Source: Halioglobus japonicus (GTDB taxonomy: Bacteria > Pseudomonadota > Gammaproteobacteria > Pseudomonadales > Halieaceae). Taken from it: 64,000 nt of DNA. This document shows, in pieces, positions 41,169-58,002 of the stretch (its first letter is position 1; each line of letters starts with the position of its first letter). The notes under the pieces were generated by a model. That model ran no database searches. It was not told the DNA's origin and worked only from the letters and a program-made list of their open reading frames with translations. A program made the position numbers and the translations under genes. The stretch spans positions 303,344 to 367,343 of the forward strand of contig CACSIL010000023.1 of the NCBI GenBank assembly GCA_902705825.1. Reading direction: 5' to 3'.

Positions 41169-42698
41169 TCAGTCCACGTCCAGGTAACGCTCTGTCAACT
41201 TGTCGATAGACCAGGAGTCAGGTTTCTGGCTCGGCGGGTACTCTTTGAAGGTCGACAGGAACTGCGCCATTACTGCCATTCCCTTGTAACCCTGTGGCGC
41301 TTTGTCGATCATCCAGTCCCAGTAGGTGTTGGAGTTGTGATCGGCGCGCTCGAAAGGATCGCGGCGCAAGTTGAAAATCTTGAACATGCGCAGAGTAACA
41401 AAGGGTTCAGCCCAGAGCGCCATGGTTTTCGCGCGGTTCTCGGCAAACACCAGCTTCCAGTCATCCACCCTGATGCCAACCGGCATACCGCTGTCTTCCA
41501 GGTAGATATACTCACGGCGTGGAGCAGTTTCGACTTCTCCCGTCAGGTAGGGCAGGAAGTTGTAGCCATCGAGGTGAAGTTTGGCGTTCTTGCTGCCCAC
41601 CTGCCGGCCTTTCAGCAAATCCTGCTTGATTGTCGTGTCACCGGCCATAGCCGCAAACGTTGGCATCCAGTCGAGGTGAGCCATAACCTGGTTGGATATC
41701 TGGTTAGGCTTGATCTTCGCGGGCCAGCGCACCATGGCAGGCACGCGGTAGGCGCCTTCCCAGTTGGTGTTCTTTTCACTGCGGAAGGGCGTAATCCCGG
41801 AATCGGGCCAGGTATTGAAATGCACGCCGTTATCCGTTGAGTAGAACACCAGCGTGTTTTCGGCGATGTCCAGTTCATCCAACTGATCGAGCATCTGCCC
41901 GACCAGTTTGTCGTGAGCTACCATCACATCGTTGTAAAAACCCTGACCGGAGAGTCCGACATTTTTTTCCGCGATATGCGTGCGAAAATGCATACCCGTG
42001 GTATTCAACCAGACGAAGAAAGGCTTGTCCTCATCCACCGCCTTGTCGATAAACTTCTTCGCCGCGGCTACAAATTCTTCGTCTGCTGTTTCCATGCGCT
42101 TGCGCGTCAGGGCACCGGTGTCCTCAATGCGTCCGTCAGCGTATGAGTGAATCACACCGCGCGGCCCAAACATTTTCTGGAATCCGGGGTCTGTGGGGTA
42201 ATCGGGATCCTCAGGCTCTTCCTCTGCATTGAGGTGGTAAAGGTTCCCAAAGAACTCATCAAAGCCATGATTGGTCGGCAGAAAGATATCTTGGTCGCCG
42301 AGGTGATTCTTGCCGAACTGCCCCGTAGCGTAACCCTGCGCTTTGAGCACCTCAGCAATCGTGATATCGCGATCCTGCAGGCCGAGTTCCGATCCGGGTA
42401 GCCCCACCTTGGTCAACCCCGTGCGCAGACCGGATTGGCCGGTGATAAATGTGGAACGACCAGCGGTACAACTCTGGTCACCGTAGTAGTCGGTAAAACG
42501 GATACCTTCGTCCGCTATGCGATCGATGTTCGGCGTGTGGTAACCCATTATGCCATCGCTGTAGGCGCTGATATTGGTGATGCCGATATCGTCACCCCAG
42601 ATCACCAGGATATTGGGTTTGTCCGCCGCCTGGGCTGATATTGCGAGGGCACAACCCAGCAAAAACAGCAGTGGCTTCATGATTTTTTGGTAGCTCAT
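41169..42698 (-). CDS. Arylsulfatase (CTAGR type)
   Basis: 509 residues with signal peptide ending AISAQA and sulfatase motifs ILVIWGDDIGITN and SCTAGRSTFITG; Cys77 is the formylglycine precursor within C-x-A-x-R, a permitted variant of C-x-P-x-R. FYSTDNGVHFNTWPDSG is the second metal site. It should work in the periplasm or outside. AAGAAGGAAAA precedes the ATG. It follows a BtuB-like receptor gene on the same strand but has its own predicted promoter. Confidence 0.93.
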   Translation of the reverse strand: MSYQKIMKPLLFLLGCALAISAQAADKPNILVIWGDDIGITNISAYSDGIMGYHTPNIDRIADEGIRFTDYYGDQSCTAGRSTFITGQSGLRTGLTKVGLPGSELGLQDRDITIAEVLKAQGYATGQFGKNHLGDQDIFLPTNHGFDEFFGNLYHLNAEEEPEDPDYPTDPGFQKMFGPRGVIHSYADGRIEDTGALTRKRMETADEEFVAAAKKFIDKAVDEDKPFFVWLNTTGMHFRTHIAEKNVGLSGQGFYNDVMVAHDKLVGQMLDQLDELDIAENTLVFYSTDNGVHFNTWPDSGITPFRSEKNTNWEGAYRVPAMVRWPAKIKPNQISNQVMAHLDWMPTFAAMAGDTTIKQDLLKGRQVGSKNAKLHLDGYNFLPYLTGEVETAPRREYIYLEDSGMPVGIRVDDWKLVFAENRAKTMALWAEPFVTLRMFKIFNLRRDPFERADHNSNTYWDWMIDKAPQGYKGMAVMAQFLSTFKEYPPSQKPDSWSIDKLTERYLDVD

Positions 42699-42944: not shown

Positions 42945-44825
42945 TTAATCCCTGTAGGTGATGCCCAGTCGAAACTCGCGTCCGGGTGCATCAAAACCTA
43001 CGGCAGTTTCATATTCTTCGTCCAGTACATTATCCACCGACAGTTGCACTTGCCAGGCTTGTGCCATCTGCCACCGCAACACCCAGTCCAGACGGTGGTA
43101 GTCATCCAGTTGTTCCGTCACCTGTTCGCCAGTGTGGCGCGAGGCTGCCCATTGATGACCTGCATAAAGGTAATCAAGTGCGGTATCCCAATCTTCGTAC
43201 ACCTGCCACTGCGCGACCAGGCTGGCAGTCCACTCGGGCCTGCCGGTGAGAACAGATTCCTCATTCTTTACATCGATATCCGTGTAGGTCGCCTGGCTGC
43301 GCAAAAACAATACTGGAAGAGGCTGCCAATCGGCCTGCAACTCAACCCCGCTGGTCTGCACACTTTTGCGATTGACGTTGCGGAAGGTTTCGTCGTCGAA
43401 ATCCACCAGGTCAGTGAAATCATTGTCGAACCAGGTTGCGCCCAACTGCAGGTTATCGGTTGCCGACCAGCTTGCACCCACATCCCAGCTCTCGCCCTTC
43501 TCCGGTTGTAGATCTGGATTGCCGACCAGCGCGTGGCCCAGTGCAAAAAAACTGGGCAGCTTGTAAGCCTCGCCCCAGTTTGCGGCCAGCGTGACACCAC
43601 CACCCACTGTGTATCTGGCGCCCGCCTGAGCAGACGTTTCACTGTCGAATTGTTGCGGATCGTCGTAACGCAAGCTGGCCTGCAACAGTAAATCGACCAG
43701 CGGTGTCGCGGAGACATCGACAAACACCCCACGGGTGTCCCGATCCAACTCGAAATCAGAAGGCAGCCGGTCACCAAAATATTCGATATAGCCCTTGCTC
43801 TTACCTTCCTCGTGACGATACTCAGCGCCGACATTGGCCTCTATATTCGACGCCAGTTGCAGCGTGTTGATCCAGCGTATCTGGTCGCGGGTGAAGTCTG
43901 TCTCCGCGCCATTGGGCGGCACCTCTACATAGGGCGAAATGCCGGGTGAGCGGTAGTGCTCCTCCTGCTCAAAGCGGCTTGCTGTCAACGTGCTGCGCCA
44001 CACCGGTGCGAGCTCCACGCCCCAGTCAAAAGCGAGAATATCCTGCGTGTACTTGCTGTCGTCCAATGCATCATAGAGCGCGTACTCAGGACCGCCACTC
44101 TGCTCCGGATAGGAACTGCGCTTGCCATCAATGTAACGGTAACTGATGCTCAGTGCCTGCGCATCGGAAGGTTGCCACCCCAGCCGCAGGTGAGCGCTGT
44201 CACTGTCCCGGGTACTGCCCGGCGTAGGCTCACCATCGTCACGACTGGCCAACTCTACAGTGTAGTTAAAATCACCGATACGACCGAGAGCACTGGCACC
44301 TACATCACTGTAATCGTGGTTGCCGCCTTCCATGTATGCCTGTTGCTCATGTCCCTCCTGCGGTCGGCGCGTGATGATATTGATAACCCCCGCCAGCGCA
44401 TCCGAACCGTAGATCGCCGATTGCGCACCGCGCACCACTTCTATGCGATCCACCCTATTGGGGTTGATGTTGGCGAAGTCAAAGCCGCCACCGCGAAAAT
44501 TGGTTGGGTCGTTCACGGCGACACCGTCTATCAGCACCAGTGTGAAGTTGGATTCGCCGCCGCGGATTGATACCGCCGTCAAACCACCCGGGCCACCCTG
44601 CGTCTCTACCAACAGCCCCGGCAACGTCTTCAGGATGTCGGCGACAGAGGTTTTGTTCAGCGCTGCAATCTGCTGCGCATCGAGAACCGACACTGAGGAT
44701 GTCTGCGCCAGTTGTGGCGCCAATGTACCCGTCACTAGTACGTCTTCAATCGCGGGTTTGAATGCCGCCTCACTGGTGCTGGCCACCAGAGGCAAAATAA
44801 CTATCGCCAGGGTTCTGTAGTGCAT
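42945..44825 (-). CDS. TonB-dependent outer-membrane receptor, BtuB-like
   Basis: 626 residues with signal peptide LVASTSEA and a TonB-box-like EDVLVTGTL. The plug carries LPGLLVETQGGPGGLTAVSIRGG and VEVVRGAQSAIYGSDALAGVINIITRR-type segments, the pattern of the BtuB/vitamin B12 receptor subgroup, and the barrel ends REFRLGITYRD. No cobalamin riboswitch was seen in the 119 bases upstream, so B12 is not assured as ligand. The next gene downstream is a sulfatase, so import of a sulfated compound is possible. Confidence 0.9.
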   Translation of the reverse strand: MHYRTLAIVILPLVASTSEAAFKPAIEDVLVTGTLAPQLAQTSSVSVLDAQQIAALNKTSVADILKTLPGLLVETQGGPGGLTAVSIRGGESNFTLVLIDGVAVNDPTNFRGGGFDFANINPNRVDRIEVVRGAQSAIYGSDALAGVINIITRRPQEGHEQQAYMEGGNHDYSDVGASALGRIGDFNYTVELASRDDGEPTPGSTRDSDSAHLRLGWQPSDAQALSISYRYIDGKRSSYPEQSGGPEYALYDALDDSKYTQDILAFDWGVELAPVWRSTLTASRFEQEEHYRSPGISPYVEVPPNGAETDFTRDQIRWINTLQLASNIEANVGAEYRHEEGKSKGYIEYFGDRLPSDFELDRDTRGVFVDVSATPLVDLLLQASLRYDDPQQFDSETSAQAGARYTVGGGVTLAANWGEAYKLPSFFALGHALVGNPDLQPEKGESWDVGASWSATDNLQLGATWFDNDFTDLVDFDDETFRNVNRKSVQTSGVELQADWQPLPVLFLRSQATYTDIDVKNEESVLTGRPEWTASLVAQWQVYEDWDTALDYLYAGHQWAASRHTGEQVTEQLDDYHRLDWVLRWQMAQAWQVQLSVDNVLDEEYETAVGFDAPGREFRLGITYRD

Positions 44826-44944
44826 TATCGACTCATACCTTTGGGTCTTTCATTGCTCTGGCCAAACTCGTAACCTTGAGAACCAGAATGGGCTGCAACC
44901 TTGAACATCAACCCGTTACTTGCTTAAAGGAACGCTACCAGACT

Positions 44945-45301
44945 ATGCTAATCAAAAGCTGTAACACGGTATTCCTGTTGGTTTATCTGTCATCTGCGGC
45001 TGTCCAGTATAACGACCCGGACGCGCTGCTATGGGTGGCAGTGTATCTGGCTGCCGCGTTGATGTGTGCCCTGCAGTTTCGTACCAACCCACCATCGTGG
45101 CTACCCCGCGTTCTGCTGGTAATCAGCGCCGTGTGGATGGGCGCGCTACTGCCCAGTATTGTCGGGCAGGTTTCCCTGCAAGAGATTTTCGCCTCTATCA
45201 GCATGAAAACACGGGCGGTGGAAGAGGCCCGTGAAATCGGTGGGCTGCTTCTTGTCAGTTTGTGGGCTGGCGTGCTCAGTTACCGCCAGCGCAAACGCTA
45301 A
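44945..45301 (+). CDS. TMEM220-like membrane protein
   Basis: 118 residues with four predicted membrane helices and the family's hallmark VQYNDPDALLWVAVYLAA near the N-terminus. Function unknown. ATG 44945 is preferred over an upstream ATG at 44876 because the family starts there; AAGGAA lies 13 bases upstream, a little far. It is divergent from the receptor gene and convergent with the large fusion gene. Confidence 0.75.
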   Translation: MLIKSCNTVFLLVYLSSAAVQYNDPDALLWVAVYLAAALMCALQFRTNPPSWLPRVLLVISAVWMGALLPSIVGQVSLQEIFASISMKTRAVEEAREIGGLLLVSLWAGVLSYRQRKR

Positions 45302-45331: not shown

Positions 45332-48300
45332 TTACTTCTTGCGTTTAACACGAATCTTCTCTCCCTTGCGGTGCAGAATCAGCGAATTCACTGAACCGTC
45401 AGGTTCTATCACAAACTGAATCTGCACATCCTCACCACCAGCGGCCGCGCCGAATGTGGTGGCATTAATCTCCTCCATTTTACCCGACCCGTACATCGGT
45501 ACATTCACATGCAAGCCATCGGGTTTATCTTCAAAGGTGAAGGTCACAAAGCTGATAGAGAACTCACCCTCAAACCGCTTGAAACCGCGATCAAAGGGTA
45601 CCTGTTCCAGCTCTTTAACGGTCCACGGTTGCATGCGATCAGCGCTGGCAGCGCGAATACCCGACACGACTTCGACGCTGACGGCATCTGCTTTATTGCC
45701 CCAGTTGCGCCGAATATAGGTCATCAACCCGGCCAGCGTAGCGTCATCCAGATCTTTCATGTGGCCGTGAGGCGGCATCACACCGTCAAAACTTGTCCCG
45801 TTCACTGTTACCGGACCGGTCATCCCCTGCAGGACGATACGACCGAGCCACTCCGGTGGCCCGGTAACCCAGGATGCTCCCGCCAGTGGCGGTGCCAGCC
45901 CGGCGGTACCCGCACCGTTTTCACCGTGACAGGCCGCACACTGTCCGTAGAATTTTTCACCCAGAGCCACCAGTTCCAGTTGCTCCGGACTCAGTGGTGT
46001 TATACCCAGCGCCAACTCATCACCCGGCCAGGTAAATGACACACGTGCAGCGAGCCGCGCATTCCACAGCGGATCGTCCTCACCCACTGAGCCATCGGCA
46101 AAAATCGGCGGAGGGCCTTCAAGTTGAGCGGGGACAAACCCCTGGCTGATTGAGACAGCCTCCATTCCGGTCAGCATGGCCATCTGCTGCCAGACGAGAT
46201 CACCCGAGCGAGAAGCGGCCAGTGCCAGCAGATCCAGCAGTTCCGGGTCTGCAACGTCTGCAGACGTGAGATCACCGCGTATATCCCGGTAAGTGTTGTT
46301 AGACAGCGCAATCAGCACCTTCTCTGCACCCGGGCTTGCCTGTGCCAGCGCTTCCAGCGCCAGAATCTCGCGCAGGAAATCGAGTTCCTGTCCCGCCACG
46401 GCCCGCACCACTGCCTGACGCACATAGGGACTGGTAATATCGGCGGCCAGCAGCTCAGCCAGCGCTGTGCGCACGCTTGCATCGGCTGAGTGATCTGCCA
46501 TGGCAAAAGCCAACTGCATGGACAGCGCTTCAGTCTGCCGGGCATCTGCCTCATCAACCTGAACACCAGTGTTGATCAATATCTGTTGTAGCTGCAGAAG
46601 ATCGGCCACCTCCAGCAGTGAGCGGCCGGCGCGCAGGGCCTGCAGTTGTAGCTGCAGGTTGCCCGATTCGGCCAGTGTCAGTACTAACTCCCGCTGCAGT
46701 TCTCCCCGGCCCTGCAGCGTCCAGATTGCATGCAGAGCAGGAACCGTATTGTCTTCATTGGTCTCAGCGGCCAATGCCACCATGTTCAACGCCGCAGTCA
46801 GGTCACCGTCGCGAGCCAGCAGCAGGCGCTGCGCGGTATCACGCACCCAACCGTTAGGATCAGACAGGGCCGCAACCAGCTCTTCATCGCTGGCTGTTGC
46901 GAGGTCGGGAAGATCGCGGCCGGCCTTGCCTTCGGTGTGACGTATGCGCCAGATTCTGCCCATCCCGATGGGGGATTCCAGATCGCGCTGGAAGACCTGC
47001 TCGCGCAGTTCATCGGTCATGTAATAGACATCCTGTGCGATGCCTCGATACATGTCGATGACATAGAGTGCGCCGTCGGGGCCGTTGGTGGTGTCCACTG
47101 GCCGAAAGCGCTCGTCAGTGGAGCCCAGAAAATCCCGCTGCCCCCATTTCTCGTCATCGTAGAGGCGCTGTGTGGCCTTGAGCGCCATGCCCTCCTCGCT
47201 CATCGCGAACTGGGCGACAACATTGCCCGCCACTTCCGGCACGAACACATCCGACTGATATTTGTCCGGGAACTGATCGCCGCGATAGGACACCAGACCA
47301 CTGACGCCGGTGGCGTTACGCAGCCGGCCGTCCTCGCGCAAAGTGCTGTCCAGATAAGCGCGATTGACGCCGGGATTGACCCGCACAGAAAAGACATCCG
47401 CAGGTTCGGTCAGGTTGACGCCCAGACCCTCCATAACAACCTGCAATTCCGGTCGCACCAGATCTTCGGCTGCGAAGAAATCGGCCTGTACCCAGGTGGA
47501 ATTGTGGTTGTAGAGCAGGCGACCGACATTGTCTTTGGCAATGCCCCACTGACCGCGGTTCAAACCCTCCCGTTCAACCAGTTCACCGTCAACTATGCGC
47601 AGGCTGCGGCTGGATTTAGAGTTGTAGAGCCAGTTGTCCAGGCCCTGCATCAGGCCGTTTTCCATGTGCTCGACATTGGCATCTGCCACCGCGGTGGCAT
47701 AACTGCCGATACTGCGCTTGTTCTCACACAGCGACGCTTTCTCGGGTAATTCACACAACCAAAGGTGGGGAGGCTCACCGATCAGCACACCTTCATTGAC
47801 CACCGCCACCGCGCGAGGGTTCACCAGTTCGCCCAGGAACACCTCGCTGGTATCCATTTGTCCGTCACCGTCGGTGTCCTCCAGGCGCACCACCTGCCCA
47901 ACCGGCTCTTCGCTGCCTGTCCCATAGGCATCGCGCATATAGCCGCGCATTTCCACCACGTAGAGGCGGCCATACTCATCCCAGGACATCGCCACCGGGT
48001 CTTCAACCAGCGGTTCAGCGGCGACCAGCTCTATCTCAAAGCCCGGTGCGATACTGAAGGCCTGCTGCGCTTCTTCGGGAGACAATACCGGAGCGGGCTT
48101 GTTGTCCAGCGTCTGGTAGAACAGCGGCTTGCCATCGCTCTGAGTGAGTGCAAACCAGTCGATGTCGGCGATCTGAAAATCATCGCCACAGCGCGCGGGC
48201 TGGATCCGCAACTGTCCGCGCTCCGGCAGGCCGGTATCGTACAAACGCAGTGCATCCACTTCATCCACGGTCAGTGTAATCGCGCCATCCATGGTGACAC

Positions 48301-49297
48301 CGACAAAGCGGTGCTGATCGGCCTGGGTCAGATCGACGGGATCGCTGAGTTGCTCGCCCGCCGGCGTCACTACACGGCCCTCGGCGCGGTCGGCATATAT
48401 CTTGACCTCGGCAAAGCTCGGCTCGGTTCCACTGTCGGCGGCCAGATAGCGCATACGGATGATCGTGGGCTGATCACAGGCGGGCACAGTCATGCTGACC
48501 ATTGCCTCATTGAACTGGCGCCGCGCTGTCAGCCAGAGCTCCCCCGCGGGAAATTCACCGGTAATAGCAGCTTCGGTAAATACCAGGCTATTGTTATCTC
48601 CGGGACGCCACTCCGCCGGCGCCAGCAGGCTGTCGCCGGGTTTTGCCATACCTGGCAATTCCTTCAGACGGATTCGCCGCCAGCGCATGATGCCTTTGTC
48701 GCCCTTGTGTACCTGCAGTGCGATAAAACCTTTGGGATCAAGGCCATCTACAATATCCGCTGCGAGAACGCCGTTGATCCAGGTCTTGATGCGCGCACCG
48801 CGCGCCTCGATCTCGATATCGTTCCAGTCATCGAGACGAATTGCCGCGCGCGCCTCGGGATTGTCCGTCAGGTCCGTCAACCAACCGCGACGCGCCTCAT
48901 CGTAAATACCACCGCTCCAGGAGCGATCGGAATCATCGAGTTCAAACTGATAACCGTAGACACGGCCATCTTCCTCGCGCTGATTCGCGCGGAACATCAC
49001 ACCGGAATTGCCGAGCTCATCCCAGCGCATCTGCATCTTCAGGGAGAAATCACCGTAGGCTTTATCGGTGCGCAGGAAGGTGTTATCGCCTTCGCCATGG
49101 TAGCCGACAATGTCTTCACCCTCGGCTTCAAAGGTGGAGTCGCCGCCCACCGAGCGCCACCCGGCGAGCGTTTTGCCATCGTACAGATAGTGGTATCCCT
49201 CCTCGAGTGTGAACTTGGGCTCCGGGGATGGCATCCAGACAAAATAGGCAGCACCGGCTATCACCACCAACGCCAACAGCAAAAGAAATTTCTTCAT
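45332..49297 (-). CDS. DUF1080 - PVC-type propeller - helical repeat - cytochrome c fusion protein
   Basis: About 1321 residues from ATG 49297; the frame extends to 49366 but the signal anchor KKFLLLLALVVIAGAAYFVW starts here. Approximate order: 30-215 a DUF1080 (3-keto-disaccharide hydrolase-like) beta-sandwich (YLYDGKTLAGWRSVGG; GNSGVMFRANQRE); 235-390 a second beta-sandwich; 410-850 a PVC-type propeller (GFEIELVAAEPLVEDPVAM; GPDGALYVIDMYRG); 850-1080 HEAT-like helices; about 1113 a heme c site, CAACH, with GVMPPHG downstream; the last 90 residues a DUF3471-like sandwich. DUF1080 proteins are known to cleave 3-keto-glycosides. Probably exported and membrane-anchored, passing electrons to a cytochrome. 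It ends the operon. Confidence 0.85.
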   Translation of the reverse strand: MKKFLLLLALVVIAGAAYFVWMPSPEPKFTLEEGYHYLYDGKTLAGWRSVGGDSTFEAEGEDIVGYHGEGDNTFLRTDKAYGDFSLKMQMRWDELGNSGVMFRANQREEDGRVYGYQFELDDSDRSWSGGIYDEARRGWLTDLTDNPEARAAIRLDDWNDIEIEARGARIKTWINGVLAADIVDGLDPKGFIALQVHKGDKGIMRWRRIRLKELPGMAKPGDSLLAPAEWRPGDNNSLVFTEAAITGEFPAGELWLTARRQFNEAMVSMTVPACDQPTIIRMRYLAADSGTEPSFAEVKIYADRAEGRVVTPAGEQLSDPVDLTQADQHRFVGVTMDGAITLTVDEVDALRLYDTGLPERGQLRIQPARCGDDFQIADIDWFALTQSDGKPLFYQTLDNKPAPVLSPEEAQQAFSIAPGFEIELVAAEPLVEDPVAMSWDEYGRLYVVEMRGYMRDAYGTGSEEPVGQVVRLEDTDGDGQMDTSEVFLGELVNPRAVAVVNEGVLIGEPPHLWLCELPEKASLCENKRSIGSYATAVADANVEHMENGLMQGLDNWLYNSKSSRSLRIVDGELVEREGLNRGQWGIAKDNVGRLLYNHNSTWVQADFFAAEDLVRPELQVVMEGLGVNLTEPADVFSVRVNPGVNRAYLDSTLREDGRLRNATGVSGLVSYRGDQFPDKYQSDVFVPEVAGNVVAQFAMSEEGMALKATQRLYDDEKWGQRDFLGSTDERFRPVDTTNGPDGALYVIDMYRGIAQDVYYMTDELREQVFQRDLESPIGMGRIWRIRHTEGKAGRDLPDLATASDEELVAALSDPNGWVRDTAQRLLLARDGDLTAALNMVALAAETNEDNTVPALHAIWTLQGRGELQRELVLTLAESGNLQLQLQALRAGRSLLEVADLLQLQQILINTGVQVDEADARQTEALSMQLAFAMADHSADASVRTALAELLAADITSPYVRQAVVRAVAGQELDFLREILALEALAQASPGAEKVLIALSNNTYRDIRGDLTSADVADPELLDLLALAASRSGDLVWQQMAMLTGMEAVSISQGFVPAQLEGPPPIFADGSVGEDDPLWNARLAARVSFTWPGDELALGITPLSPEQLELVALGEKFYGQCAACHGENGAGTAGLAPPLAGASWVTGPPEWLGRIVLQGMTGPVTVNGTSFDGVMPPHGHMKDLDDATLAGLMTYIRRNWGNKADAVSVEVVSGIRAASADRMQPWTVKELEQVPFDRGFKRFEGEFSISFVTFTFEDKPDGLHVNVPMYGSGKMEEINATTFGAAAGGEDVQIQFVIEPDGSVNSLILHRKGEKIRVKRKK

Positions 49298-49382
49298 GTA
49301 ATGACCTGTATTCCTGACAATATTTTCAATTCGGGCGAACCAGAACCGGACACCGCTTATGCCCACGGGCAGTCACACTCCG

Positions 49383-50453
49383 CTACTGTTCTGCCAACGC
49401 CTGCGCCTTCATGCTCAATTCGGCAGCCTTGAACACATGCGCCTGCGTCATGGCCGTTTCCGTGCGCACGATACAATCGCGTATCAACTGACCGAAAAAC
49501 GGAAACCCGCTACGGTTCAGGCAGTCGATTTCCCGCTCCTGCTCGCCATCGATAAGAAAGAGTTTGGCTGCGGGTGCCTCCCTGGCAACATCGATGTATT
49601 TGCGCAGTTCGATACTGCCGCTGGTACCGACAATAAACGTGCGACCATCACCCCAGGTACGCAGACCATCGGGCGTATACCAGTCCACACGACTGTAAAA
49701 AGACGCGCCATTATCCCCGGTCATGGACATTTCACCAAAATCCTCCAGGCCCGGTTTGTCTGGGTGGCTGAAGTTTGCGACGCGGGCAAAGTTGATCTCA
49801 GCGTCGGCGCAACCGGCGTAGGTCAGGAACTGCTCGACCTGATGTGAGCCGATATCGGTGAGGATGCCGCCATAACACGCCTTGTCAAAAAACCACGGCG
49901 GCCGGGTTGCCTTCGCCAGTCGGTGCGGCGCGAGATTGAGCACCTGCAATACGCGCCCGACAGCACCCTGTGCTATCAATTCACCGGCGTGACAGGCGGC
50001 ATCATTGTGCAATCGCTCGGCGTAGTACACCGCATACTTTTGCCCGGTTCGGGCGACTGCGGCGCGCACATCCTCGAGCTGTTGCAGGCTGATGAAAGGG
50101 GATTTGTCGGTAAAGTAATCGCGGCCCGATTCCAACACCTGTATACCCAGTGCAGCCCGCTTATCGGGCACTGCGGCGGCGGCTACCAGTTTGATGTCGG
50201 CATCCTGCAGTATCTGTTCGACGCTGTCTGCGACTACGACACCGGGGTAGGTTTCCACAAACGCGGCCACGCGCGCTGGATCGGGATCATAAACGTATTT
50301 CAGCGTCGCACCGGCATCGCGCAGGCCATTGGTCTGACCATAGATATGGCCGTGATCCAGATGTGCCACGGCGAAACAGAATTCTCCCGGGGCAACCACC
50401 TGTTCCGCTTCTGCGCTGGGCGCGTAATTGGCGCCGTCACCTATATTTATCAC
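49383..50453 (-). CDS. Gfo/Idh/MocA family oxidoreductase, divergent
   Basis: 356 residues, GTG start 50453 with GAGG about 11 bases upstream. It has the Rossmann and Gfo C-terminal folds, but the dinucleotide loop is not GxGxxG: it reads FAVAHLDHGHIYGQTNGL, as in a known subgroup. The usual EKP is DKSP (Asp116-Lys117-Ser118-Pro119), so the catalytic Lys is kept. DIGSHQVEQF supplies the conserved Asp and His. No signal peptide. Such enzymes oxidise or reduce sugars, inositols or glycosides. It lies 12 bases after the Nramp-like gene and 85 bases before the fusion gene. Confidence 0.87.
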   Translation of the reverse strand: MINIGDGANYAPSAEAEQVVAPGEFCFAVAHLDHGHIYGQTNGLRDAGATLKYVYDPDPARVAAFVETYPGVVVADSVEQILQDADIKLVAAAAVPDKRAALGIQVLESGRDYFTDKSPFISLQQLEDVRAAVARTGQKYAVYYAERLHNDAACHAGELIAQGAVGRVLQVLNLAPHRLAKATRPPWFFDKACYGGILTDIGSHQVEQFLTYAGCADAEINFARVANFSHPDKPGLEDFGEMSMTGDNGASFYSRVDWYTPDGLRTWGDGRTFIVGTSGSIELRKYIDVAREAPAAKLFLIDGEQEREIDCLNRSGFPFFGQLIRDCIVRTETAMTQAHVFKAAELSMKAQALAEQ

Positions 50454-50465
50454 TGTGCTTTACCC

Positions 50466-51845
50466 TCAGAACCAATTCAGCTTGATGCCGGTGCTGTAGG
50501 TGACGCTGGCAAGCACCGTCAGAATGCACAGCACCATAGCAAGGTTGTACCAAGCGCGGCGCGCACCCTCCGGCCGATCGGCACCCAGATAAGCCTTGTT
50601 ATTGTTTAAAAACAGCCAGCCCAGATAAGCAATAGGAAGCAGAAAGCCGCAGATTGCCGAGGTCGGTAAAATTACATACGAACCCATCGTTGACCATAAA
50701 AACACACCGAGTACCGCCGGGGTCGGCAGTAACAAAGCAAGCCGGTACTGCTTCGAATGCGGCTCCCAGTTGAACATCGCGCCGGCCGCCGCGCCGCAGC
50801 ACAGCATGTGCATCACCAGCGAACCCACGGCCATACCCAATATGCCCACCGCAAAAATAAGCCGACCAGTTACCGGCCCCATGCCCGCCTCACTGAACAT
50901 CTCGCCCGCCTGTGCCGGACTGAGTGTACCGTTCACGACGAATCCGGAATCGTAAAATGCACCGGCTGCCGCTATAGATATAAGACCCGTCACCAGCACA
51001 TAGGGCAGTACCAGTCCCAACACGATGTCATAGCGCGACAATTCGCGGTGCGCCGGCCCCCAGCCACGATCCAGCAGGGTGTAACCGTAGACAAATGTCA
51101 TATTGATACCGACCGCAGTGCCCAGTGCCGCCATGATGGTTGTCACGCCCGCTGCGTCGCTCGGCAGGCTGCTGGGGATATAACCCGATAGCACCGCGCC
51201 CCAGTCAACCTGGCCGTTGGCTGTAGCGGCCAGCACCACCCAGAGAAAGGCGAGAATAATCATACCGCTCAACAGCTTAATGGCCGTCTCAAACACATAG
51301 ACCGCCCGTCCGCCTGCGCCGTAATGCCACGCGGTGTAGGCGCATACCATCCACACTAAGACCGCCAGGCCGAACAGATAGAACTCGCGCGTCATACCGG
51401 GCTCATTTTGCAAATTCACGCCCCCGCTGACCGCGATAATTTCCTCCAGCATGCCAGCGCTGAGCGGGTAGTGTGAGAAGCCCCAGATGATGCTCGATGC
51501 CAGCGCCGCAATAGCCCATAACCAGGCCAGTGAGGGGTGTACGTGATCGCGCATTGCCGCAAATGGCCGCTTACCCGTGCTCAATGTCTGATGGGAGAGT
51601 GCGAACAACATAATGCAGCCGATAAGCATGGACAGCGGCTGCACCCACAGCAACTCATAGCCGTACACTGCGCCAATTGTCAGCGAGGTGATCGCACTGC
51701 CACCGCCGAGCGTCATTGCGCCCTGCAACCAACCCGGACCGCTCAGGCGCAGATAGGTAGGGAGCCGCTGCCGCAATGGCTTCTGGCCTAGCGCTGTGAG
51801 CTCGGCAACTTCGCGCTCCATTATCACTGCTGCTGACTCTGTCAT
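50466..51845 (-). CDS. Nramp-fold transporter lacking the Nramp metal-binding residues
   Basis: 459 residues with about 11 membrane helices and Nramp-like sequence in TM1 (LSGPGWLQGAMTLGGGSAIT). Canonical Nramp has DPGN at the TM1 break; here TLGGGS (45-50) stands there, so the metal-ligand Asp and Asn are absent. In TM6 the expected VMPH reads VGIN (245-248), removing the metal-binding Met. The substrate is therefore probably not Mn or Fe. The gene overlaps the upstream Gfo/Idh gene by four bases (ATGA) and precedes another one, which ties it to sugar oxidation. Databases would probably call it a divalent metal transporter. Confidence 0.85.
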   Translation of the reverse strand: MTESAAVIMEREVAELTALGQKPLRQRLPTYLRLSGPGWLQGAMTLGGGSAITSLTIGAVYGYELLWVQPLSMLIGCIMLFALSHQTLSTGKRPFAAMRDHVHPSLAWLWAIAALASSIIWGFSHYPLSAGMLEEIIAVSGGVNLQNEPGMTREFYLFGLAVLVWMVCAYTAWHYGAGGRAVYVFETAIKLLSGMIILAFLWVVLAATANGQVDWGAVLSGYIPSSLPSDAAGVTTIMAALGTAVGINMTFVYGYTLLDRGWGPAHRELSRYDIVLGLVLPYVLVTGLISIAAAGAFYDSGFVVNGTLSPAQAGEMFSEAGMGPVTGRLIFAVGILGMAVGSLVMHMLCCGAAAGAMFNWEPHSKQYRLALLLPTPAVLGVFLWSTMGSYVILPTSAICGFLLPIAYLGWLFLNNNKAYLGADRPEGARRAWYNLAMVLCILTVLASVTYSTGIKLNWF

Positions 51846-52996
51846 CGGTAGGAGGCACTCATATCAACGGTAGTTTCAATATCTGCCTTGCGGCGCAGTG
51901 TAGAATTGGTGATGCGCTCCGCCAGAACCTGTTGGTAATGCCCGCTGTCCAGCGGCAGCGAAACTGCCCGCGCCTCCCAACTGGACAACAGCATAGCGTT
52001 GGCCAGAGCCAGTGAATCCAGTCCCGCACTGGCCGGCGCAAGTAGCTCATCGCCACGCAGTATCGCGCCGACAAAATTGGTCATCACCGCAGCGTGTTGG
52101 TTGATGCTGCGATCCGGTGTGATATCGCACACCTTCGACGTCGGCATGCCAAACATCTCCCGGGTAGTGCGACTGAACTCAAGCGTACCCGGTTCGTTTT
52201 CACTGAGGAGCAGGCGCTCGCCGTCGAATGCAAGCGCGCCGCGATCGCCGATCACATCAAAGCGATTTACCCCGGGCGCCTCGCCAGTGGAGCCGACAAA
52301 TACGCCGCTAGCACCATTGGCGTAGCGGAAAACGGCCGTGGCCTCATCCTCCACTTCGATATCGTGATAGCGCCCAAATTCGCAGAAAGCCTGCACCGAT
52401 AACGGCATACCGCATAGCCATTGAAAAATATCCAGGTTATGGATGCATTGGTTGAGTAACAGTCCACCCCCCTCGCCACGCCAGGTGGCGCGCCAATCGC
52501 TCACCTTAAAATACACTTCCGGTCGGAACCAGTTGGTCATCGTCCAGTGTGTGCGGGTGATCTCACCCAACGCACCGCCGTTAACGATGTTACGCATAGT
52601 GGTGAACAGCGGATCAGTTCGCTGATTAAGCATCAACGCAAAGACCTGTCCACTTTGCTGCAGCGCGATTAAATCCTCGCCCTCTTGCGTCGACAGACCG
52701 ATGGGCTTCTCCATCATCAGGTGCAGGCCCGCACGCAGCACGCACGCACCAGTCTCGAAATGTGTGAACGTCGGGGTCGCTACCAGCACCGCATCACAGA
52801 GGCCGCTGTGCACCAGTTCAGTGTAATCTGTGAAATGCGGGACACCCAGATCGTCTGACAGGGCAGTGGGCTGGCGAGTGCAAACGGCCGCGAGCACACA
52901 GTCAGTGATCTGGCCGCTTGTCAGGTTTTCAATATGCTGTCGGGCGATATTCCCCAGGCCAATCACGCCCAGTCGTACTACCTTGTTCTGCCCCAT
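51842..52996 (-). CDS. Gfo/Idh/MocA family oxidoreductase
   Basis: 384 residues with the canonical dinucleotide loop GVIGLGNIA (10-18) and the catalytic motif EKP (96-98). LLLNQCIHNLDIFQWLCG carries the conserved His. It should be a cytoplasmic NAD(P)-linked dehydrogenase of a sugar or cyclitol, or of a glycoside at C3. AAGGTGAG lies 8 bases before the ATG. Its stop overlaps the transporter start. Confidence 0.92.
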   Translation of the reverse strand: MGQNKVVRLGVIGLGNIARQHIENLTSGQITDCVLAAVCTRQPTALSDDLGVPHFTDYTELVHSGLCDAVLVATPTFTHFETGACVLRAGLHLMMEKPIGLSTQEGEDLIALQQSGQVFALMLNQRTDPLFTTMRNIVNGGALGEITRTHWTMTNWFRPEVYFKVSDWRATWRGEGGGLLLNQCIHNLDIFQWLCGMPLSVQAFCEFGRYHDIEVEDEATAVFRYANGASGVFVGSTGEAPGVNRFDVIGDRGALAFDGERLLLSENEPGTLEFSRTTREMFGMPTSKVCDITPDRSINQHAAVMTNFVGAILRGDELLAPASAGLDSLALANAMLLSSWEARAVSLPLDSGHYQQVLAERITNSTLRRKADIETTVDMSASYR

Positions 52997-53056
52997 TGGC
53001 TACGCTCACCTTGTGTCTCGCCGGATTCTCCTGCTAATCGAGGCTAAAACATGCAG

Positions 53057-53087
53057 AAATTGGCCCGAAAAGTGGTCAGGCCAATTT
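53057..53087. promoter_or_regulatory. 9-bp inverted repeat between SDR and Gfo/Idh genes
   Basis: AAATTGGCC (53057-53065) and GGCCAATTT (53079-53087) are exact complements around 13 bases. On the minus strand it lies 35 bases after the SDR stop and 60 bases before the oxidoreductase start. With only three T after the stem it may be an operator or a partial terminator separating SDR from the oxidoreductase genes. Confidence 0.4.
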
Positions 53088-53121
53088 AGAGACAACGCCG
53101 ATGACTGTCAAGCAAAGCGAG

Positions 53122-53895
53122 CTAGAACCCCTCGACCTGATGCACCTGTTTCCAGATCAGACCGGGGAAGAGACGACGCATAATTGCGCCAATTTTGGAA
53201 TCGCGGGTCGGAAAAACGAAGAATTTGCCCTTCTTCAGGCACTCTTCCACGGCTTCAATCACAACTCTGGGTGCGATCGGGGCACTCTGGCTCTCCAGCA
53301 TTTTTGGCCAGGCGGTATCCTTGCCCTGTTGCAGCAGCGGTGTGGCAACAGCGGGCGGACACACACAGGCAAACCGCACGCCGGAATGCATATTCTCGTG
53401 ATACAGGGTCTCAGTGAAGCCCACCACAGCAAATTTGGTGGCCGTGTAGGCGCCGGTCAGCAACATCGGAATAATCCCTGCCATAGAGGCAAAGCTGACG
53501 AAATCACCCCGGCCACGCTGCAACATTCCAGGCAGCACTGCCTGTGTAATATTGACCAGACCGCCGTAGTTGATCGCCATCTGCTTGTGAATAATGGCGT
53601 TGTCCTGCTCCACCAGCTTGCCAAATGGCATAATGGCCGCACAGTTATAGAGACGCTCTACCGGGCCGAGTTTCTCTTCCACCTCTCGCACAGCCGCACA
53701 CACAGCGTCAAAATTCGTCATATCGACAGTCCAGCTATGGATGCTATCGAATGTCCCGGCTGTCTCTGCCATCCCGGCGGCATTCACATCAAACAGCGCC
53801 ACCGTGGCACCTTCCGTGGCAAAACGCCGGGCGGCCTCACGACCCATCCCGCTACCGCCACCGGTAATCAATACGACTTTTCCAGAATTTGCCAC
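53122..53895 (-). CDS. Classical short-chain dehydrogenase/reductase
   Basis: 257 residues, GTG start 53895 with GAGGGAG 10 bases upstream. The NAD(P)-binding loop is TGGGSGMG, the structural motif NCAA takes the NNAG place, and the catalytic Ser and Tyr-Lys are in SFASMAG and YTATK. An Asp in LFDVNAAG at the end of the second strand favours NAD. Substrate unknown. It is upstream of the Gfo/Idh-transporter operon with 125 bases between, holding an inverted repeat. Confidence 0.9.
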   Translation of the reverse strand: MANSGKVVLITGGGSGMGREAARRFATEGATVALFDVNAAGMAETAGTFDSIHSWTVDMTNFDAVCAAVREVEEKLGPVERLYNCAAIMPFGKLVEQDNAIIHKQMAINYGGLVNITQAVLPGMLQRGRGDFVSFASMAGIIPMLLTGAYTATKFAVVGFTETLYHENMHSGVRFACVCPPAVATPLLQQGKDTAWPKMLESQSAPIAPRVVIEAVEECLKKGKFFVFPTRDSKIGAIMRRLFPGLIWKQVHQVEGF

Positions 53896-54054: not shown

Positions 54055-56181
54055 TTATTCCTGCGGGCCTGCAGCAGATGCGGTGGGGCTATACCACACC
54101 GGCGATGTCCAGGCACGCTCCTGTACGATGGGGCGGTGCTCCGCTGAGCAGCAGCCCTCATACCCCTCGGTGATGGTGTCAGGACGCGCACAATCCACAC
54201 CGGCCGCAGCACACATGCGCTGGCTCCAGCGGCAGGTTGGGTTTTCTACTACACGGGAATAATAATAGGCCCGCTCATTGGGGTCGAAATCCGTGTCTTC
54301 CCAGACCGCACACAAATCGGCAAAACCGCTGCCACTGGTGGCGCACGATTGCACATCAACAGAGGCGCCGTTGTTGGCATTACCAGCCACATCAATCACC
54401 CGCTCATGGCGCTCACCGCCAGCGTCCACCCAGCCCTTGATCACCTGCAAGCGCTGCAGCGGTGTACCGGGCTCGGAGGATGTACCCGCATCCTGGCTGG
54501 CGGCAACGAGGAATGTGGGACGGTTCTGCGCGCCCGGTCGCGCGGGCAACATCGAGCCCATAGGCACACCATCAGCATAACCTCGCGCTATACGATCGGG
54601 TGCGCCGCACAGGTCCGCCGGGAAATCCCAACCGGCAAAAAAGCGACTGGTAATACGCGGCCCGCTGGTACCGTAGGTTTCGCGACGCTGCATCGCATCG
54701 AATAGCGCATCACGGCTGTTTTCGTGCGCCCAGAGTACGGCGAGACCGCCCGGGTTGTATTCCAACTCGTCGGGCAGACCGGGTGGAATTTCCGTCTCAG
54801 CAGGAACACCGGCACCACCGTGACCGAGAAACAAATCTTCCCGCGCAGCGCCCGGCGTACCCAGATGGGTATCCGTACTGGCTATCACGCCAAGCCGGTA
54901 GGGGTTTATACCCAGCGTGTTTTCGATCACCATGCCATCAGCCAGTACCTTGCGTACAAAGCCGGTATCCGGTGTCGGGGGATCATTGAAGCCGGCAATA
55001 TTGTCCTTGGGCAACTGCTCGAATGCACACAGCTCATCCTCTGTCACGCCCGCCTGGAAAAAACACTCAGATGAACCCTTGTGCTGCATAATCTCAACCA
55101 GCGGTTCAAAGCGTGCGCGTGACAAAGCATACTCCTCCGTCATCGGCGCGCCATCGTCTGTCAGGCCGCTGAACATTGAGCCGGCACTGTAGTTGGAGTT
55201 GTGGGGAATCACCAGAGATTCGCAGGTATTTCCCACACCGTTACAGTTTTCTTCCAGAGAGTCCCACAGCAAATGTGCCGCCGGTGCATCGATGAAACTG
55301 GTGGGCAGTTCGGGAACCTCGGCATTGCGGAATACCACGTTGCGATGCAAATTACCGCCGTTGGAACCATTCATGCCTGTCCATTCGTAACCGACGAATG
55401 TGGTGAATTCGCAGTCTTCACTGCGATCATAATAACGCTCTGCGGCCTCCTGCATCTCCTGCCACGGCAGCAGCGCTGCCTCCAGGCAACGCTCACCATC
55501 CTCGCCACACTGCCCCATATGCGCTTGCTCCATAGTCGCCATATAGTTAAACAGGTAGAAAGCCCCACGCGACCAGTTCCGGTAGAAAATGCACTGCCAG
55601 GACTTATAGCCGTCATACTCCGGGGTATTGCACATATAGACCTCACCGATGAGCTCGGCGTGATCCGACACCATGGCGAAATCCAATGGCCGCGACAATT
55701 GCAGAGAACGCAGCGCCTCACCGGATTCCGTCCAGGGTTGAATAGGGATGCGCTCGCCACGTGCAAACTGGTATGCCTGTTCGGGTGTCGTACGGGTGCC
55801 CTGGGTACTGGCATCCAACGAATAGCGCGTGTGCACATGCAAGTCACCAAAGAAGGGTTTTTTCAGGGGGGATTGTGTCGCACAGGGTTCACGTGTTTCT
55901 GAGTACGTCTGACTGGGTATTGGCAGCGCAGCCGAGGTGAGCTCCTCTATCGCCGTCCCCTCCTCAACCTCAACACTGTCTTCATTCGTAACGATGTCCA
56001 CCGACTCGATAGCGCTATCCGCATCGATTGCTTGCTCCGACACCATCGCGGGCTCGGGCTCAGCGACGGCTGGCGCAACGGATAACAGCAAAACACTATA
56101 AAGCGCTACTATTGCACCGAATGCTCCACCGACCATTCCACCGAACCGACTGCCGGCTTGCAATTTTCTGCGCTCAACCAT
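54055..56181 (-). CDS. DUF3604 family protein (PHP-like metallo-phosphoesterase relative)
   Basis: About 708 residues from ATG 56181, which follows the sulfatase stop after one base; the longer frame from 56325 lies within the sulfatase gene. A signal anchor (GGAFGAIVALYSVLLLSV) and an acidic linker precede the core: FFGDLHVHTRYSLDA and FAMVSDHAELIGE, metal-binding His/Asp motifs like those of PHP phosphoesterases, then FVGYEWTGMNGSNGGNLHRN. DUF3604 proteins are widespread in marine bacteria, often beside sulfatases, and their reaction is not established. Several paired Cys in the mature part suggest disulfides. Confidence 0.85.
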   Translation of the reverse strand: MVERRKLQAGSRFGGMVGGAFGAIVALYSVLLLSVAPAVAEPEPAMVSEQAIDADSAIESVDIVTNEDSVEVEEGTAIEELTSAALPIPSQTYSETREPCATQSPLKKPFFGDLHVHTRYSLDASTQGTRTTPEQAYQFARGERIPIQPWTESGEALRSLQLSRPLDFAMVSDHAELIGEVYMCNTPEYDGYKSWQCIFYRNWSRGAFYLFNYMATMEQAHMGQCGEDGERCLEAALLPWQEMQEAAERYYDRSEDCEFTTFVGYEWTGMNGSNGGNLHRNVVFRNAEVPELPTSFIDAPAAHLLWDSLEENCNGVGNTCESLVIPHNSNYSAGSMFSGLTDDGAPMTEEYALSRARFEPLVEIMQHKGSSECFFQAGVTEDELCAFEQLPKDNIAGFNDPPTPDTGFVRKVLADGMVIENTLGINPYRLGVIASTDTHLGTPGAAREDLFLGHGGAGVPAETEIPPGLPDELEYNPGGLAVLWAHENSRDALFDAMQRRETYGTSGPRITSRFFAGWDFPADLCGAPDRIARGYADGVPMGSMLPARPGAQNRPTFLVAASQDAGTSSEPGTPLQRLQVIKGWVDAGGERHERVIDVAGNANNGASVDVQSCATSGSGFADLCAVWEDTDFDPNERAYYYSRVVENPTCRWSQRMCAAAGVDCARPDTITEGYEGCCSAEHRPIVQERAWTSPVWYSPTASAAGPQE

Positions 56182-56182
56182 T

Positions 56183-57853
56183 TCATGGAACACTGACAAT
56201 TTCACTCTCCTCCCAGCCATAGCGCACCGCCCTGGCTTCAATTTCACTGCTTCTGCGCACTCTGGCTGGCCCGGTATAGAGCTGCCAGTCGCCGTCATCG
56301 ATGCGATATTCCAGCGAATGTCCACGCTCAGCCGGCGAGATCACCAGCGACTCTGCGCTGAATGAAAGTGTCGGTGCAGGGGTGACCCGACGCTTTCCAT
56401 CCGGCTCGAATCTGGCGACCATAGCGGACTCAGATTCATCGCTCCAGTCATCAACACGTGTCAGCCAGGCATCCATCGCACCGCGCATTCGTTTCAAGAC
56501 ATCCCGATATTGCAGATCTCCACTTACATCGTGCACTTCGAATGGGTCCAGTTCCAGATCAAACAGGCGCTCTTCCCCCGGCGGCTCATACCACTGCCGC
56601 TGTACCGCATTCAGTTGCCCGGCATCGTACATTGCCCGCATTTCGCGCACCATTTCGATATTGTCCCGAAAGGCCAGATCAGTGCCGCCCGGAACAGCCG
56701 GATACCAGCTTCGAATATACTTGTAACGCGTATCCCTGACAGCCCTTTGACGATCCTCAAGCTCATCAATGCGGTCTCGGGATGCATAAATATACTCGTT
56801 AGGCGCAGAACTTTTCTGCGCAAAGTCACGCCCATGCATATTGGCAGGCACCGGCACTCCGGCCAGCGACAAAATGGTGGGGCCCAGATCGACAAAGCTG
56901 ATCAGGCGCTCTTCTAGCGCACCGGGCTTCATGCCATCGGGGCGAAAGCCCTGCGGCCAACGAATAATCATCGGCACCTTGATGCCCGAATCAAACAGCT
57001 CGCGCTTGCCTCGCGGCAAGCCATCGCCATGATCGGTTGTCCAGATCACTATCGTCGAATCGGCCAGACCTGCAAGCTCAAGCTGCGTGAGAATGGCCCC
57101 AACCTCCTCATCCATGTAGGCAATATTGTTGTAATGTCGCGCCATATCGGCGCGCACTAACGGCGTATCAGGGTAGTAGGGTGGCACCGCAACATCCTGC
57201 GACTTCACCACCTCGTCCACCGGCCTGTCCTGGCTATACCAGCGCATCAACTGCATCACGAAATGGGTCGCACTGTTGGGCATCGCACCCAACGGGGGAA
57301 ACACGCCACTTTCATGCGTGACCATAAAACTGATAAAGCCAAAAAATGGCTGCCCGGCTGCGCGCTTGTCCCAGTCGGTGGCAGTACCGCCTTCGATATC
57401 CCATATAGAGGGCGGCCCGCTGTGCGCAAAAACAGCGCTGAACTGGTAATCCAGTTTGTGGTCCGTGTAGGTGTAGTATCCCCCCGCGCGCAATAACTCC
57501 GGGTAGGCCTTCGCATTTTCGGGTGGTACCGAGTAATAGCTGCCCTCAGGGCGAGTGCTGCTGCGCATGTACTGCGTGCCCGTCGATATCTGGTGCATAC
57601 CGAGGATATGCGCGGCCCGACTGGGTGCGCAAACACCCGCTGTGGTGAATGTGTTGGTATAGCGCACACCCTCCCCGGCCAGCGCATCAAGGTGAGGCGT
57701 GACGGCCACAGAGTCACCAAACGCACCCACTCTGCCGCTCATATCCTCTGCCATCAGCAGCAGTATATTGGGCCGCTGAGGTGGTGATTGAGCGCCCGCC
57801 ATCTGTGCGAAAAGGAACAGGGCGGAAAGGCCCAGCCCTCGAATTATTGGCAT
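56183..57853 (-). CDS. Sulfatase, S1 family (CAPSR type)
   Basis: About 556 residues from ATG 57853 ([20 protein letters not shown], a signal peptide), with GGAG 10 bases upstream; the frame reaches 57916 without support. Motifs are [13 protein letters not shown] (metal site), [12 protein letters not shown] with Cys75 as formylglycine precursor, and [16 protein letters not shown]. The C-terminal 80 residues form an additional beta domain. It is coupled to the DUF3604 gene: the stop and next start read TGAAATG. Confidence 0.92.
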
Positions 57854-58002
57854 CTGCGATACTCCAGAACTATAGCGAGATACAAGCCCGCACGTCACCG
57901 TCCAAGCGACATCCATTTTCCTGGGCCGCCTTTATAACAGCACAATACCCTAACGCCATTCCCCGAAAATGTCTTGTACGCACACATTCGCGACTACCGC
58001 TA

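Follow-up and report, generated by a model that had tools for sequence, protein, structure and literature searches.

The window analyzed here, a stretch of 64,000 nucleotides from Halioglobus japonicus (assembly GCA_902705825.1, contig CACSIL010000023.1, positions 303,344 to 367,343 of the forward strand), carries on its minus strand five successive genes encoding a short-chain dehydrogenase/reductase (SDR), a Gfo/Idh/MocA oxidoreductase (Gfo1), an Nramp-like transporter, a second Gfo/Idh/MocA oxidoreductase (Gfo2), and a protein in which a DUF1080 domain, a beta-propeller, and a cytochrome c domain are joined (the fusion protein). The five genes form two modules, namely the cassette Gfo1-Nramp-Gfo2 (module B) and the neighborhood of the fusion protein, which comprises TonB-dependent receptor, SDR, and DUF3604 genes and, in some genomes, P450 and ThuA genes (module A). 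We give about even chances to the reading that both together constitute a glucuronide-salvage system, the reactions of which are proposed below. A preliminary description of this DNA had listed the same five genes and their family names, all of which stand, the open reading frames (ORFs) being present and the Pfam matches in agreement. The genes and the domains of the fusion protein are as follows.

53122-53895, minus strand: SDR oxidoreductase, 257 aa (Pfam adh_short, 156 bits)
51842-52996, minus strand: Gfo1, Gfo/Idh/MocA oxidoreductase, 384 aa (Pfam GFO_IDH_MocA families), a glucuronide 3-dehydrogenase homologue
50466-51845, minus strand: Nramp-like transporter, membrane protein of Nramp fold, 459 aa (Pfam Nramp, 80.9 bits)
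49383-50453, minus strand: Gfo2, second Gfo/Idh/MocA oxidoreductase, HxHIY subfamily, 356 aa (Pfam GFO_IDH_MocA families)
45332-49366, minus strand: fusion protein, 1344 aa counted from a GTG start
48662-49189, minus strand: DUF1080 / 3-keto-disaccharide hydrolase domain of the fusion protein, residues 60-235 (PF06439, 131 bits; PDB 4jqt, E 2.1e-52)
46934-48082, minus strand: DUF7133 beta-propeller of the fusion protein, residues 429-811, with a fold like that of pyrroloquinoline quinone (PQQ) sugar dehydrogenases
45707-45970, minus strand: cytochrome c domain of the fusion protein, residues 1133-1220 (PF00034, 33.7 bits)

The set is beyond chance because its ORFs are long, its family scores exceed the curated cut-offs, and orthologues occur in the same order elsewhere. 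A search of 96 genomes of relatives, including the host itself, with the Nramp-like protein separated 16 carriers from 80 non-carriers, with copies 64-91% identical in 15 of the 95 other genomes and the next-best match (E 1.5e-14) at 27% identity. The order Gfo1-Nramp-Gfo2 on one strand was found in all 15 carrier relatives, Gfo1 being cut by a contig end in L045. A scan of named genomes, in which the best 80 of 215 matches corresponded to 77 loci and up to 10 kb per side was fetched around each, gave 46 near loci (62-91% identity) and 31 far loci (31-43%). The near loci come from 45 genomes, as L096 and L098 belong to one metagenome-assembled genome (MAG), and because 13 of them lie on the same contigs as among L033-L047, the scan contributes about 32 additional genomes. 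All are labeled gammaproteobacteria except L077 (Rhodobacteraceae), and named isolates of Parahaliea and Paraglaciecola are among the carriers. The cassette is complete in 43 of the 46, in line with the earlier proposal that both Gfo types and the Nramp-like gene go together; the Gfo1 match is incomplete in L089, and contig ends truncate L096 and L098. Gfo1 lies directly upstream of the Nramp-like gene in 44 of the 45 loci with room for it (the 45th, L089, being the incomplete match), and Gfo2 immediately follows that gene in 45 of 45. The protein distance matrices are correlated (r 0.69-0.89, a value reached by 0 of 500 permutations for each of the six pairs), a correlation to which species descent contributes. 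Gfo1-Nramp-Gfo2 is a fixed unit. The cassette of L077 is 66% identical and its neighbors resemble those of Porticoccaceae/SAR92 loci; this locus is perhaps a mislabeled MAG or a transfer.

The far loci belong mostly to Verrucomicrobia and Planctomycetes, and a Gfo1-like gene directly downstream of the Nramp-like gene was found in 7 of the 31 (26 having room) and close by in L100 and L108. In Verrucomicrobia L102, L103, L105, L113, L116, L121, and L122, a Gfo/Idh-like gene directly follows the distant Nramp-like gene, an arrangement that suggests that the association of Gfo enzymes with transporters of this type is older. Ten neighbors in far loci were scanned (four in L111, five in L115, one in L116), among which one sulfatase and one glycosyltransferase were recognized, with no sugar-breakdown link evident for the remaining eight.

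The substrate is indicated by the company that module B keeps. UxaC is encoded in 15 of the 16 cassette carriers versus 9 of the 80 non-carriers (Fisher p 1.4e-10), the sole carrier without it, G046, being a 70% complete genome. The same holds within the genus (7/7 carriers, 0/11 non-carriers) and outside it (8/9 versus 9/69), where carriers span 2.1-5.0 Mb; within the genus carriers have larger genomes (4.1-5.4 versus 3.0-4.4 Mb), a difference that may explain some of the association in that group. UxuA and UxuB are markers of the glucuronate branch, and 17 of the 46 named loci include a UxaC-, UxuA-, or UxuB-like gene in their stretch, although L068 has only a 38% UxuB-like piece. G049 has the order Gfo1-Nramp-Gfo2-GntR-UxaC-UxuB-like-fusion-TonB, with UxuA divergent. 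In the host genome, UxaC, UxuA, GntR, UxuB-like, and PfkB genes lie together, away from the window locus; the UxuB-like gene (L131:4894-8013, G000:C5) runs on, without a change of frame, through an AMP-binding (acyl-CoA synthetase) domain to a length of 1039 aa, which is either a true fusion or an assembly effect. Because module B tracks UxaC and the closest solved relative of Gfo1 is a glucuronide 3-dehydrogenase, a glucuronide is the likely substrate, and the unspecified "glycoside or sugar" of the preliminary description was dropped in favor of glucuronate. A rhamnose link was rejected: RhaA occurs in 0 of the 96 relatives, too rare to serve as a matched control, and a GH78 rhamnosidase stands beside the cassette in one locus only (L079).

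Both Gfo proteins show the Rossmann and C-terminal domains and the conserved lysine of the Gfo/Idh/MocA family. The best PDB match of Gfo1 is 8tdi, "P2B11 Glucuronide-3-dehydrogenase" (229.9 bits, E 3.7e-67; runner-up 99.7), with which it shares the stretch NW[FY]RPxxY[FY]xxSDWRATWxGEGGG[LV]LxNQ around the probable active site; E96-K97-P98 and H186 are invariant in 15 aligned sequences. The second-best matches, 3q2k/3q2i, we take to be 3-dehydrogenases of a UDP-hexuronate. Gfo2, nearest to 2p2s (E 5.8e-97) and 3u3x (E 3.6e-86), has an invariant D116-K117 (alignment of 16) and AHLDHGHIYG in place of the usual glycine loop. It had been called divergent, and this loop region is indeed unusual, but a comparable HxHIY stretch stands at this position in 2p2s and 3u3x, so that the divergence is a trait of the subfamily. 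The Nramp-like protein has the Nramp fold (378 residues aligned to DraNramp) and scores below the cut-offs of all three NCBIfam Nramp models. Canonical Nramp proteins bind metal through the motifs DPGN in transmembrane helix 1 and MPH in transmembrane helix 6; these positions hold GGGS and GIN, both invariant in 36 homologues. The loss of DPGN is not unique to the cassette group, since all 11 other Nramp-like proteins of relatives that were compared (L030 left out) also lack it.

The fusion protein consists of a hydrophobic leader, DUF1080, a linker, the DUF7133 propeller, a helical region, cytochrome c, and a C-terminal beta region. The protein probably starts at the inner ATG, at 49297 (MKKF...), as its relatives do. 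A single CxxCH (CAACH) is found at residue 1143 (45926-45940), and the protein scores 163.7 bits against a cut-off of 122.2 with TIGR02604 (PVC-type heme-binding CxxCH protein). DUF1080, the 3-keto-disaccharide hydrolase domain of the 3-keto-glycoside pathway, is thus present beside a dehydrogenase candidate, of which sequence comparison offers two for a glycoside 3-dehydrogenase: Gfo1, putatively by homology to 8tdi, and the propeller, which is only similar in fold to sugar dehydrogenases. The propeller has the fold of the PQQ sugar dehydrogenase superfamily with a distant profile match, and the non-PQQ types HHIP and SMP30 score close behind the PQQ-type entries. One histidine and three arginines (H152, R189, R338, and R340), invariant in 23 aligned sequences, match by eye PQQ- and calcium-binding residues of that family and might have this role here. 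The Lys and the GGDE/GGDExN loop of the PQQ family were not seen by eye in the propeller, and PqqC is absent from the host and from all 16 cassette carriers, which could import PQQ. DUF1080 and the propeller-cytochrome form a single chain in the window and are adjacent separate genes in L071 and L091. The host encodes a second such protein (L132:8353-11610, G000:C50; 1085 aa) with a different domain order, namely cytochrome c (298-380), a DUF7133 match (20.8 bits, below the cut-off of 27), and DUF1080 (870-1083), and many congeners have DUF1080-containing ORFs of roughly 1057-1140 aa.

Further features of the window concern module A and the spacing of the genes.

42945-44825, minus strand: TonB-dependent receptor (family search), a frequent neighbor of the fusion gene
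44876-45301, plus strand: TMEM220 small membrane protein (family search), syntenic in congeners on the opposite strand
54055-56325, minus strand: DUF3604 protein (family search), adjoining the SDR and fusion genes in congeners
56183-57916, minus strand: sulfB, sulfatase-like (labeled by eye and from its resemblance to sulfA), syntenic in congeners
41169-42698, minus strand: sulfA, sulfatase (family search), adjoining the TonB gene
39782-41038, plus strand: cytochrome P450 (labeled by eye), with 78-82% identical copies syntenic in four congeners
38485-39678, plus strand: ThuA-like protein (PF06283, 59 bits), syntenic with the fusion gene in four congeners
53083-53111, minus strand: promoter-like match ahead of Gfo1, sigma-70-like (TTGACA, 17, TAAATT), by consensus only

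Loci of the propeller protein were examined in 8 of the 11 non-carriers that have it. Six cassette-free congeners (G002, G003, G004, G005, G007, and G009) show the order DUF3604-SDR-propeller protein-TMEM220 (opposite strand)-TonB, without a TonB match in G009; G044 has DUF3604, a ThuA, and the propeller without an SDR match, and the G032 contig is 3 kb long. Because six congeners have module A without module B, the window locus can be described as module A with the cassette between SDR and fusion genes, and sister species with and without this cassette offer a ready natural comparison. The propeller protein itself lacks DUF1080 in three of the six (L136, L137, and L142), L137 having a separate DUF1080-like gene nearby. 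TonB and the propeller protein are close together in L033, L035, L037, L042, L043, L044, and L046 and in cassette-free L133-L136 and L142, but not in L137. The preliminary description had placed all five genes in one operon, which was rejected: SDR adjoins the propeller protein in all six cassette-free congeners, whereas an SDR match is present in only 7 of the 46 named loci, one of these 33% identical and on the opposite strand, and SDR is a partner of the fusion's older neighborhood, not of the cassette now lying between them. By ORF coordinates the Gfo1 and Nramp-like genes overlap by 4 bases and the Nramp-like gene is 12 bases from Gfo2; the Gfo2-fusion gap is 85, measured to the inner ATG, and the SDR-Gfo1 gap of 125 contains the promoter-like match, which is weak because such sigma-70-like matches show no excess over shuffles (5 in the region versus 4.3). 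The suggestion that the ThuA-like protein at 38.5 kb belongs to the same chemistry gained support: four of the six cassette-free congeners (L133, L134, L135, and L137) have ThuA and P450 in the same arrangement as the window, three of them with ACS2 as well, the two genes were not found in L136 and L142, and ThuA lies near the fusion in two carriers (L161 and L163). That ThuA is unrelated to the cluster was rejected in view of this synteny, the L033-L047 stretches without a ThuA match mostly ending before it. A different ThuA gene and a separate DUF1080 gene stand together, divergent from the cassette, in L044 (12550-14201), L046 (by cluster), L065, and L067, with only the ThuA end in L069; the propeller protein lacks DUF1080 in L044, L046, and L065 and lies past the contig end in L067.

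The two modules frequently meet. Of the 15 carrier relatives' loci, 10 include a propeller protein within the stretch, and two of the other five (L036 and L045) reach contig ends; in G036 and G062, propeller protein and cassette are on different contigs, the G062 propeller being only 42% identical. The named loci have a propeller/cytochrome protein in 24 of 46 cases and no propeller match in 22, and a DUF1080-like match in 28, and keto-sugar chemistry linked to a cytochrome, as first proposed, is still the best reading. In Alteromonadaceae L071 and L091, the cassette is near a propeller protein without SDR or TonB matches in the stretch. Six loci without a propeller match (L057, L077, L080, L081, L082, and L088) encode, next to DUF1080, a third Gfo/Idh that carries a twin-arginine-type leader, and none of the 46 has both a propeller match and the third Gfo. 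This variant looks like the BT2158 system, since a periplasmic location is reported for the glycoside 3-dehydrogenase BT2158 (PMC11300592), and the propeller-cytochrome would take the place of the third Gfo in other loci. In L057, sulfatase, PhoD, GH28-like, and Na/sulfate symporter genes lie near the twin-arginine-type Gfo, and L077 and L080 have clustered counterparts of them.

The majority of DUF1080 and propeller proteins have hydrophobic leaders or lipoprotein-like cysteines, and no export signal was seen on Gfo1 or Gfo2, leaders being judged by eye from the first residues of the gene calls in at most 14 proteins per kind. The reaction order put forward in the preliminary description, with oxidation by Gfo, cleavage by DUF1080, and then transfer to the cytochrome, is unfit because the fusion and DUF1080 proteins look exported and Gfo1 and Gfo2 do not. 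In the glucuronide-salvage system that we propose, the propeller would oxidize the sugar ring of a glucuronide in the cell envelope, most likely at C3, the cytochrome c domain would accept the electrons, and DUF1080 on the same chain would cleave the 3-keto-glycoside. The Nramp-fold transporter would then carry the released keto-glucuronate across the inner membrane, Gfo1 (with Gfo2) would reduce it to glucuronate with NAD(P)H as donor, and UxaC, UxuB, and UxuA would feed glucuronate to central metabolism, while the other neighbors of the fusion may deal with the freed aglycone. We infer every reaction, the direction of Gfo1, the C3 site, the location of the proteins, and the transported substrate; gene content, order, co-occurrence, and domain folds were seen directly. 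That the fusion is a respiratory oxidative deglycosidase, one envelope protein that oxidizes a glucuronide, passes the electrons to the cytochrome c on its chain, and breaks the bond, with a protein of metal-transporter fold importing keto-hexuronate for two reductases and the UxaC pathway, is possible and proposed only tentatively. As a whole, the loci represent a conserved, coherent system that is most likely the known 3-keto-glycoside route in a form linked to glucuronides. To call the pathway new, which the preliminary description had considered possible, is too strong, because papers have described that route for disaccharides and glycosides (PMC9007349, PMC10628242, PMC11300592) and a glucuronide 3-dehydrogenase has PDB entry 8tdi.

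Two observations weigh against joining the modules in one system, namely that a strong DUF7133 match (E < 1e-89) is found not only in 15 of the 16 carriers but also in 11 of the 80 non-carriers, and that 10 of the 46 named loci have no propeller, third Gfo, or DUF1080 nearby. Four of these ten (L059, L063, L072, and L096) end close to the cassette, and the MAG of L096 has a propeller match on L098. The modules might be independent, with module A (TonB, fusion, SDR, P450, and acyl-CoA ligase) freeing and oxidizing a lipophilic glycoside or aglycone and module B serving hexuronate from elsewhere, as the six congeners with A alone would suggest, together with the within-genus non-carriers, 9 of 11 of which have a strong propeller protein and none UxaC. 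We find this improbable, as module B lies near a propeller protein in two-thirds of the relatives' loci (10/15) and in Alteromonadaceae L071 and L091 without SDR or TonB matches in the stretch, and outside the genus a strong propeller protein occurs in 8 of 9 carriers versus 2 of 69 others. The same ten loci, and the 22 without a propeller match in the stretch, would also fit import of the whole glucuronide by the Nramp-like protein and its oxidation in the cytoplasm by Gfo1, the closest relative of which (P2B11) is named for the oxidizing direction, with Gfo2 or an unlinked lyase or hydratase finishing and the fusion merely nearby. This is unlikely considering that the cassette holds no lyase gene, that a leader was seen by eye on most of the listed DUF1080 proteins, and that the genomes of 15 of the 16 carriers encode a strong propeller protein.

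The role of the Nramp-like protein can be read differently. With GGGS/GIN invariant where metal ligands would be expected, and no other importer gene in the cassette, it is rather unlikely to be a metal importer that supplies the pathway with a cofactor metal such as Mn2+ for a lyase. On the other hand, metal transporters share its fold and family, YcsG, an operon-embedded Nramp, is reported to import Mn2+ (PMC10448178), and an Mn2+ eliminase acts on 3-keto-glycosides (PMC10628242). Under the glucuronide-salvage reading, it would be another organic-acid case in a transporter family known for metals, for which the Nramp-family protein PxpT provides a precedent with 5-oxoproline (PMC13274462). 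Glycoside bonds are normally viewed as hydrolyzed, and the oxidative alternative is recent; if our reading is true, oxidative glycoside cleavage extends to mostly marine gammaproteobacteria, is tied to respiration rather than NAD cycling, and has glucuronides as a named substrate class.

Among the matches listed in our literature searches, the coverage of which excluded most subscription papers, no title dealt with this gene set, and the system is best placed by its likeness to known ones. The Agrobacterium operon (PMC10628242), where a Gfo oxidoreductase acts as 3-keto-sugar reductase, and the levoglucosan route (PMC7676230) share with our proposal 3-keto oxidation, bond cleavage, and reduction of the keto-sugar by a Gfo enzyme, whereas here the propeller-cytochrome fusion would stand in for the first dehydrogenase and DUF1080 for the eliminase, with glucuronate as the probable sugar. 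Bacteroides BT2157/BT2158 and Caulobacter LacABC-DUF1080 (PMC9007349, PMC11300592) combine a periplasmic glycoside 3-dehydrogenase with DUF1080, as in the six relatives' loci with a twin-arginine-type Gfo, but act on disaccharides, whereas the window has a c-type cytochrome and DUF1080 on one chain. PQQ sugar dehydrogenases (sGDH, Asd, and AA12) resemble the fusion in propeller fold and by a distant profile match, but the fusion lacks the GGDExN loop by eye, its host lacks PqqC, and its propeller is fused to DUF1080 and cytochrome c. Nramp/MntH, EleNRMT, and PxpT/YcsG have the fold of the Nramp-like protein, which, in contrast, lacks the canonical metal-ligand motifs and is set between two Gfo/Idh oxidoreductases. 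P2B11 glucuronide-3-dehydrogenase (8tdi), finally, is the nearest solved relative of Gfo1 and has the active-site stretch in common with it.

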